A stretch of DNA of 54,299 nt. It comes from Candidatus Eisenbacteria bacterium (GTDB taxonomy: Bacteria > Eisenbacteria > RBG-16-71-46 > SZUA-252). Where the stretch lies: positions 1 to 54,299 of the forward strand of contig VBOW01000024.1 in NCBI GenBank assembly GCA_005893275.1, in the 5' to 3' direction. This document shows positions 52,747 through 54,299 of the stretch, in pieces. Position 1 is the first letter of the stretch. Every line of letters begins with the position of its first letter. The notes under the pieces are model-generated. The model saw only the letters and a program-made list of their open reading frames with translations. It was not told where the DNA came from and searched no databases. The translations under genes and the position numbers were made by a program.

Positions 52747-52983
52747 TTACGCGGGCTTCGGCGCGGGCGGCGGGAGCGCGCGTGCCTCGACGATGGACGC
52801 AAAACCGCATGTCTTATGGGTGCTGTCGCAAAACGGCTTGTTCGAGGACTGACCACACCGACATAAGGAGATCATCGTGCGCCCGGCCAGATCGAACGGC
52901 CTCCCTTCCTGATCGACGATCGTGAAATCCCCCTCGACTCGGATCGAGCCATTGTTTCGAATCGTGATGGTGGCTCCCGGCAT
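52747..52983 (-). CDS. CDGSH iron-sulfur domain protein
   Basis: The 78-residue protein has the CDGSH 3Cys-1His cluster site: C41-R-C43, S46, P50, C52 and H56. The usual Gly after Cys-Asp is Ser (C-D-S-T-H). It would bind one redox-active or transferable [2Fe-2S] cluster. It is 29 bases upstream of the BaeRF3-like gene and heads that operon. Confidence 0.9.
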   Translation of the reverse strand: MPGATITIRNNGSIRVEGDFTIVDQEGRPFDLAGRTMISLCRCGQSSNKPFCDSTHKTCGFASIVEARALPPPAPKPA

Positions 52984-53068
52984 GAATCCTCCTGGTCGTG
53001 CGCGCGATCCCGGGGGCGGGTGACCGCCGCCACGGGGAATGGATTCAGTATAAACGCTTTCGGGAGTA

Positions 53069-53201
53069 GTTCGTCTGGTTTCGCATGGGCTCGCGTAGGT
53101 TCGTGCAGTTCCCCTAGACGCGCCCGGGCCAGCGGGTTCCCGAAGCTACCGGGGGGGCGACGTGGTTCGCTCAGGTTCGTCAGGTTTCGCCCTAGGTTCG
53201 C
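53069..53201. repeat. Two clusters of GGTTCG-like sites at 10 bp spacing
   Basis: Cluster 1 has TTCG (once CTCG) at 53070, 53080, 53090 and 53100, exactly 10 bp apart. Cluster 2 has TTCG at 53166, 53176, 53186 and 53197. Most are preceded by GG or AG. The clusters start 96 bp apart in the divergent gap 52984-53421, which also holds TTATATCC near 53255 and AAAGGAG at 53266. No gene is seen in the gap. Confidence 0.75.
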
Positions 53202-53421
53202 CCAGGAAAGCTCTCGGTTAAGCAGTCGATTTCGAGATTTCTGATGCCCGAACGGTTATATCCTTAAAGGAGTTTCTGAGGCGCATTGCGCCCACGAGCT
53301 CCAATCGCTCGCTTTTCCCCGATCTCCCCGTTGTTGCGTTCGTGGGAGGGTCGGCGGACGGCATTCTCCTATCCGTCCCCCATCGGGGAAACGGGGCGAG
53401 TCTTCATGGGAGGGTCGTCCG

Positions 53422-54299
53422 ATGTATGCCCGAATTCCGGTCGCCCTGGCTATTCTTTTGCTCTTCATCCTCGCAGGGGCCACGAATTCGGAAGCAGCAC
53501 CGTCCGCCGCGGATCGAGCAAACGAGGTCACGCTCGCGCAGAGTCCCTCGGAGCGCGCGCGAGCCGTGAGCGCCCCGGTCCTGTTCGCGCCCGCGCCGAT
53601 GTCCGTTCCGCAAGGGACGACCGCGGACCAGTACCTCTACGCGACGGACGGGGACGGAGACCCGATCACCTTTTCCAAGACCTTCGGCCCGTCCTACATG
53701 ACCGTAACCACGATCTATCCGAGCCACGGCTACGCCACGGGAAACGTGCACCTCGCGCCCTCCTTCGATGACGTGGGCACGGCAACCGGGGGGATCGCGG
53801 CGAGCGACGGGTCCTCCACCTCTACCGCGACGCTGGACATCACGGTGACCCCCAACAGGGCGCCGATCCTGGACCAGCCGTCCCCGATGAGCGGAGGGGC
53901 GGGCCAGACGATCGAGCAGACCCTGACCGCGAGCGATCCCGACCGGAATCTCCTCTCCTTTTCCAAGGTATCCGGCCCCGCGTATATGTCGGTCCAGACG
54001 CTCGAAGCCTCGCCGAGCGGGGCGACGGGTCTCGTTCGTCTGTCCCCTAGCGCCTCGGATATTGGATCGAGCACGGGGACGGTGGGGGTAAGCGACGGAA
54101 TACTGATGGATCAGAAGTCGTTCTCGATCGCGATCCGGACGAACACGGCTCCGCAGATCGAGTCCATCGACACGCTCTTCGTGACCCCGGGGTCGACCGT
54201 CGACCGTTCGGTATTCGCGAGCGACGCGGACGGAGACCCGATCACCTTTTCCAAGGTCTTCGGTCCCGCCTGGATGACCGTTTCCACGGCGAGTCCGGG
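53422..54299 (+). CDS. Secreted cadherin/Ig-like repeat protein, 3' end outside window
   Basis: The first 292 residues are present. GGGAGGG seven bases before the ATG at 53422 and a signal peptide (A-L-A-I-L-L-L-F-I-L-A-G) set the start. After about residue 60 come beta-sandwich modules with period 96 residues, each with A-S-D-x-D-x-x-x-x-x-F-S-K and a G-P-x-x-M-T-V stretch, as in bacterial cadherin-like or 'tandem-95' adhesins. Probably a large surface or secreted protein. Confidence 0.82.
   Translation, partial: MYARIPVALAILLLFILAGATNSEAAPSAADRANEVTLAQSPSERARAVSAPVLFAPAPMSVPQGTTADQYLYATDGDGDPITFSKTFGPSYMTVTTIYPSHGYATGNVHLAPSFDDVGTATGGIAASDGSSTSTATLDITVTPNRAPILDQPSPMSGGAGQTIEQTLTASDPDRNLLSFSKVSGPAYMSVQTLEASPSGATGLVRLSPSASDIGSSTGTVGVSDGILMDQKSFSIAIRTNTAPQIESIDTLFVTPGSTVDRSVFASDADGDPITFSKVFGPAWMTVSTASP
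53653..54255 (+). repeat. 288 bp coding repeats
   Basis: TTTTCCAAG recurs at an exact 288-base step (ending 53679, 53967, 54255). Units 1 and 3 share a perfect 27-base stretch at 53653-53679 and 54229-54255, while unit 2 has diverged, suggesting a two-module duplication. Confidence 0.8.

Follow-up and report, generated by a model that had tools for sequence, protein, structure and literature searches.

The window analysed here, a stretch of 54,299 nucleotides, makes up the whole of contig C24 in the draft genome, assembled in 95 contigs, of a Candidatus Eisenbacteria bacterium. Its last part carries, in order, a gene for a CDGSH iron-sulphur protein (52747-52983, minus strand; PF09360, E 7.5e-19), a short attL-like sequence, TTCAGTATAAAC (53044-53055, plus strand), a segment that lacks homology in relatives (53056-53244), a leader common to other adhesin gene copies (53245-53421, plus strand) and the N-terminal part of a secreted, adhesin-like repeat protein (53422-54299, plus strand) with Big_9 and Cadherin_4 domains, where the contig end cuts the gene. 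The two named loci closest to the CDGSH protein (79% and 70% identity) are both from Candidatus Eisenbacteria. Of interest is the segment without homology, as it contains an array of TTCG sites spaced by about one turn of the DNA helix.

Geometry of the TTCG array

The sites lie on the plus strand in two clusters. Cluster A (53059-53103) consists of five YTCG sites, at 53059, 53070, 53080, 53090 (CTCG) and 53100, and is followed by a degenerate TTCC at 53110; cluster B (53166-53200) has four TTCG sites, at 53166, 53176, 53186 and 53197. The initial annotation had described two clusters of four sites about 10 bp apart, with starts separated by 96 bp (53070 and 53166). The spacing and the distance are correct and cluster B has four sites, but the site at 53059 had been overlooked in cluster A. 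The unit consensus is about aGGTTCGyny. The best-fit period is about 10.2 bp inside one cluster, and 9.7 or 10.6-10.7 bp for both clusters jointly, so that the proposed placement of the sites on one face of the DNA is approximate.

How unusual is such an array? Exact TTCG is present eight times in 53056-53206, where 1.03 are expected (Poisson 1.2e-5, uncorrected), and no other 151 bp of the whole window, on either strand, reaches this density. Chains of at least four YTCG sites at 9-11 bp are found in the window only in the array, and two such chains 40-150 bp apart appeared in none of 100 dinucleotide shuffles, nor does the window have a comparable pair elsewhere. Single TTCG-N6-TTCG pairs, on the other hand, are ordinary (three matches vs 3.9 expected). 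When the genome was scanned with TTCGN{5,7}TTCGN{5,8}TTCG, 28 matches were obtained, three of them from the array; 24 of the other 25 fall inside open reading frames of at least 80 codons, and a YTCG chain of four is also present at three of these 25 loci. A single chain can thus occur by chance, and it is the pairing of clusters that is unusual.

Similar arrays were looked for more widely. The idea of a common regulatory array was rejected, as a strict threefold GGTTCG was found in four out of 47 genomes from the phylum, and most of these cases are the GGTTCG hexamer microsatellites that are scattered over many places and several contigs of one genome (G014). Two GGTTCG units plus GGTT were found in two of nine genomes of the family, the present one and G005, where the single match falls within a gene that looks, by eye, like a P-type ATPase. 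A pattern scan of viral contigs gave 23 stretches, most with GGTTCGGTTA units, and six listed contigs with these units have the array beside a long open reading frame, primase-like by eye. The viral arrays were treated as unrelated, because most share the GGTTCGGTTA units and a simple integrase motif was present in none of the 23 stretches. Several viral contigs (L155, L156, L158, L163, L168, L170, L171 and similar ones) have 10-bp arrays of three AGGTTCGGTT units, non-coding or in short open reading frames and in several cases next to a primase-like long frame (by eye); these are possibly operator or origin repeats.

Two other candidates were discarded. tRNA T-loops read TTCRA, and A follows none of the nine array sites, which speaks against a T-loop decoy. 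An RNA element was rejected as well, as 53056-53244 folds no better than its shuffles (z +0.89); an Rfam search of 52940-53600 returned one match, at chance level (E 3.9).

The CDGSH/ABC-F junction and its duplicated core

Orthologues of the CDGSH gene are present in seven of the eight relatives searched. In each of the six that have both genes (G001, G003, G004, G005, G006 and G007), it is divergently oriented to an ABC-F gene with the Pfam domains ABC_tran and ABC_tran_Xtn, which we take to be EttA-like; at the thresholds used, G002 has neither gene and G008 has the CDGSH gene only, at a contig end. The array had been placed in a divergent promoter region between the CDGSH and adhesin genes, a setting that is not upheld by the relatives, where the divergent partner is the ABC-F gene. 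All six orthologous CDGSH/ABC-F sites are without the array, and the relatives lack the entire segment that bears it. Each of the six intergenic regions has one GTATATAC motif. In several relatives this is a palindrome, GAGTATATACTC, whose sequence suggests an operator or a pair of divergent -10 elements that overlap.

In the genome studied here the two genes are separated, and the sole ABC-F match is on contig C82. The order there, toward the ABC-F gene, is an adhesin C-terminus, the C-terminus of a tyrosine recombinase that ends 42 bp before the right core, TTCAGTATATACTCC and then the ABC-F gene. The core copy that precedes the ABC-F gene, TTCAGTATATAC, is identical to TTCAGTATAAAC at 11 of 12 bases. 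The adhesin C-terminus on C82 has the orientation of the window adhesin, and C24 and C82, on which the two ends of the putative element lie, both run into adhesin sequence.

The left joint was defined by comparing 52950-53500 with 39 genomes, own genome counted. One block of homology, on the CDGSH side (52950-53055), is shared with G003 and G001 and stops, in the junction alignment, at the left core; a second, from 53245 onward, is shared with adhesin leaders in G003 and on contig C17 of the same genome. The array sits exactly between these two breaks, at 53055 and 53245. Besides itself, 53056-53225 had no match below E 0.008 in the 39 genomes, and blastn of 53040-53250 against plasmid and phage collections gave none. 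The presence of the core at both joints, where relatives have one copy, points to site-specific integration as opposed to a simple break, with the CDGSH gene as the left host flank.

The adhesin genes form a family in this genome. A paralogue of 1195 amino acids on C17 has FG-GAP, PKD and FlgD_ig domains, and at C17:68864-78593 adhesin copies (FG-GAP, Big_9, PKD, FlgD-like) occur in both head-to-head and tandem arrangement; the leaders they share start at CCCGAACGG. It seems that members of the family spread and recombine in this genome.

The integrase remnant and related elements

The recombinase fragment on C82 matches Phage_integrase (PF00589) with an E of 5e-4, below the curated cut-off, as would be expected of a fragment. 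Among 46 further genomes of the phylum, 15 have integrases that it matches at 36-47% identity. No complete integrase of the type was detected in this genome, and no sequence closely related to the remnant turned up in genome or viral contigs. Another C-terminal piece of an integrase, a 79-amino-acid open frame at 47196-47345 of contig C29, is 39% identical to the one on C82 and lies near an HNH-like frame.

Where do the related integrases reside? Eighteen of 24 loci in relatives were fetched, and in 11 of the 18 a tRNA gene is found beyond the 3' end of the integrase gene (nine tRNA-Leu, two tRNA-Glu), at about 1 kb in the case of L145. The interval between the two genes holds tandem repeats spaced 11-12 bp, e.g. 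TGTGCTTGTTC twice or AACTGGGCGGG twice. With a score for tandem repeats at 10-12 bp spacing, nine of the 11 tRNA loci have a best value of at least 7 in the first 130 bp, vs 5.6% of 2200 random segments; those below are L136 (score 6, though an 8-mer recurs there unchanged after 12 bp) and L147 (score 4). At L140 the top-scoring place differs from the tandem pair seen in the repeat listing. An ungapped lag scan of the 600 bp past the relatives' integrase stops gave no consistent array; it took anchoring on the tRNA end to bring out the tandem pairs. On C82, tandem repeats are absent from the integrase-side arm (score 1), and its sole link to the window segment is a 9-base inverted match, CGGGTTCCC, which can be chance.

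Ten of the 11 tRNA loci (all except L138) were searched, over the available sequence, for a repeat of the tRNA end, and one complete element was found, at a tRNA-Leu gene (G040:C482; L204:350-10410). About 50 bp of the 3' part of the tRNA gene are repeated some 10 kb away, and the element of about 10 kb so delimited encodes an integrase (47% identity over the C82 remnant), an AAA_25 protein and a fusion of capsid protein and prohead protease; no further structural gene was recognised in it. It may resemble a capsid-encoding phage satellite. Just inside its far end are a TGTCCGGTT pair, the same as near its integrase, and three CGGCAGA units at exactly 10 bp, the only site in the 269534 bases of these loci at which a 6-mer is tripled at 10 or 11 bp. 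The G040 element is similar to the one proposed for the window in its related integrase and in the 10-bp phasing of repeats just within its far end, a comparison based on this one element. It differs in its tRNA target, another repeat unit, the tandem pair on both arms and a complete integrase.

Possible origins of the array

Taken together, the array borders DNA that seems to have been inserted and is most likely a leftover binding array from a mobile element, not a switch of the flanking genes. Integration is argued for by the adjacency of the CDGSH and ABC-F genes in all six relatives and their separation here, by the end of left homology at the core just before the array and the second core at the right joint, by the integrase C-terminus so close to that core, and by the common direction of the adhesin pieces on C82 and in the window. 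An empty site in relatives, a core at both junctions and an integrase beside one end, the last as a C-terminal remnant, are the marks by which such elements are recognised. Against insertion, C24 and C82 are separate contigs, and C17 is a further contig with an adhesin C-terminus at its end.

The segment 53056-53244 is accordingly proposed as the inner left end of the element, and the array is, with somewhat better than even confidence, its attL-side arm, an orphaned set of binding sites for a directionality factor or for the integrase. The tandem repeats on the tRNA side in relatives and the triple at the far end of the G040 element support phased arms; the repeat unit of the window, which differs from those of the relatives, counts against them. 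In the mechanism envisaged, an integrative element would have entered the short CDGSH/ABC-F promoter region by site-specific recombination at TTCAGTATA(A/T)AC, in what we infer was a single insertion. The repeats might be operators for a small recombination directionality factor (Xis/Cox/Apl-like) or arm sites of the integrase; one protomer would bind per helical turn, head to tail, and the DNA would be bent so that the ends synapse for excision. The element would then have decayed, with the C-terminal piece of the integrase alone remaining at the other junction and the adhesin gene filling the known interior, so that the array would now be orphaned and probably without function.

Known systems were compared for both presumed binders. 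Integrase arm-type sites occur as related sites on both arms, a pattern that the C82 arm does not have. For directionality-factor operators, the typical form is a run of short direct repeats at an attachment site with a spacing near one helical turn, and this is what is found here if integration is correct. Directionality factors are described as cooperative binders of direct repeats at one-turn spacing that bend the DNA; lambda Xis binds tandem repeats one turn apart head-to-tail, and both lambda Xis and P2 Cox bend att DNA strongly (PMC7498355). Apl of phage 186 has 6-bp operators, direct repeats 10-11 bp apart with five at attP, to which it binds cooperatively with bending (PMC7498355). The array thus has the form of the Apl operators, short direct repeats about 10 bp apart and several in a row, and, if integration is right, their place at an attachment site; the likeness to Xis and Cox is one of published description, in the case of Xis of tandem repeats one turn apart. 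The array departs from the Apl operators in its sequence and in its division into one cluster of five sites and one of four; a protein resembling Apl was not found, and the element seems to be decayed. The search of the genome for a cognate directionality factor covered the HTH_17 family and had no match. In ICEMlSym-R7A, IntS has five arm-type motifs, TGKTGGTATC, in a 283-bp attP, and RdfS binds the attL region beside one of them (PMC11963761). Several short motifs near att are thus a common trait; motif and spacing differ, and ICEMlSym-R7A is a live conjugative element. The earlier view that the geometry suits a cooperative, DNA-bending protein is borne out, in that short direct repeats one turn apart match a known protein class.

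Could the repeats be the product of slippage? A unit of about 10 bp (aGGTTCGyny) might have multiplied in a non-coding insert and then diverged, the helical spacing being incidental and no protein being bound. This possibility, of rather low probability, is in accord with a Tandem Repeats Finder call (53164-53206, period 10, 4.2 copies, 80% matches), with spacer bases partly common between units, with a 16-base stretch repeated 106 bp off at 94% and with the microsatellites of G014. A decayed minisatellite accounts less readily for a TCG that is constant in all nine units while the bases 3' of it vary, a site-like pattern as far as sequence can tell, for the maintenance of two distinct clusters and for phased repeats with another unit at the end of the related G040 element.

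An unlikely alternative is that the array is live and that a cooperative host regulator, BldC-like or a nucleoid protein, controls the adhesin gene, perhaps in replacement of a lost -35 element, or the CDGSH gene. The array does lie 5' of the adhesin leader. In G003 this leader has, by eye, TTGACA, 16 bases and TATATC; the window leader keeps the -10-like TATATC and has other bases at the -35 position, and no sigma-70-like pair was found in 52980-53430. BldC of Streptomyces forms cooperative multimers on direct repeats (PMC5859096; PMC11963761), and on a longer target bound molecules are one DNA turn apart (PMC11963761). The one-turn spacing is shared with the array; BldC acts at chromosomal developmental promoters, and no HTH_17 protein was found in the present genome. 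Nor did the array recur at a second promoter among the three-site matches of the genome that have open reading frame context. The initial annotation had the array controlling the adhesin or CDGSH gene, but a conserved operator of these promoters is contradicted by its absence upstream of the four other adhesin copies examined, as well as from the six orthologous CDGSH sites.

Even less probable is a misassembly or a rearrangement, in which the array would mark a wrong or recombined joint of unrelated contigs and no integration took place. The window spans an entire contig in a draft of 95, adhesin copies are repetitive and pieces of them lie at several contig ends, and C82 includes a run of N; on the other side, a core at both joints is unlike a simple break, the orientation of all pieces is consistent across C24 and C82, and the array stretch is unique sequence and not a misjoin-prone repeat. 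Very improbable is co-option, whereby the orphaned directionality-factor array would recruit a host DNA-bending protein to its phased sites and drive expression of an adhesin gene with a lost -35, the same insertion having uncoupled CDGSH from ABC-F.

The initial interpretation is partly supported overall, and the best explanation of the array is that it forms one end of a mobile element that integrated here and decayed, which makes it a further case of a familiar type. A limited literature search brought up no paper on an Eisenbacteria integrase or mobile genetic element. The loci described here give a first sketch of the att sites of one Candidatus Eisenbacteria integrase group, in which the integrase gene points with its 3' end to a tRNA gene, tandem sites are 11-12 bp apart and, at the far end of one complete element, a triple is phased at 10 bp. 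They also illustrate that synteny can account for a conspicuous array of phased sites in a draft assembly, where it marks the end of an element and not an inherited promoter.
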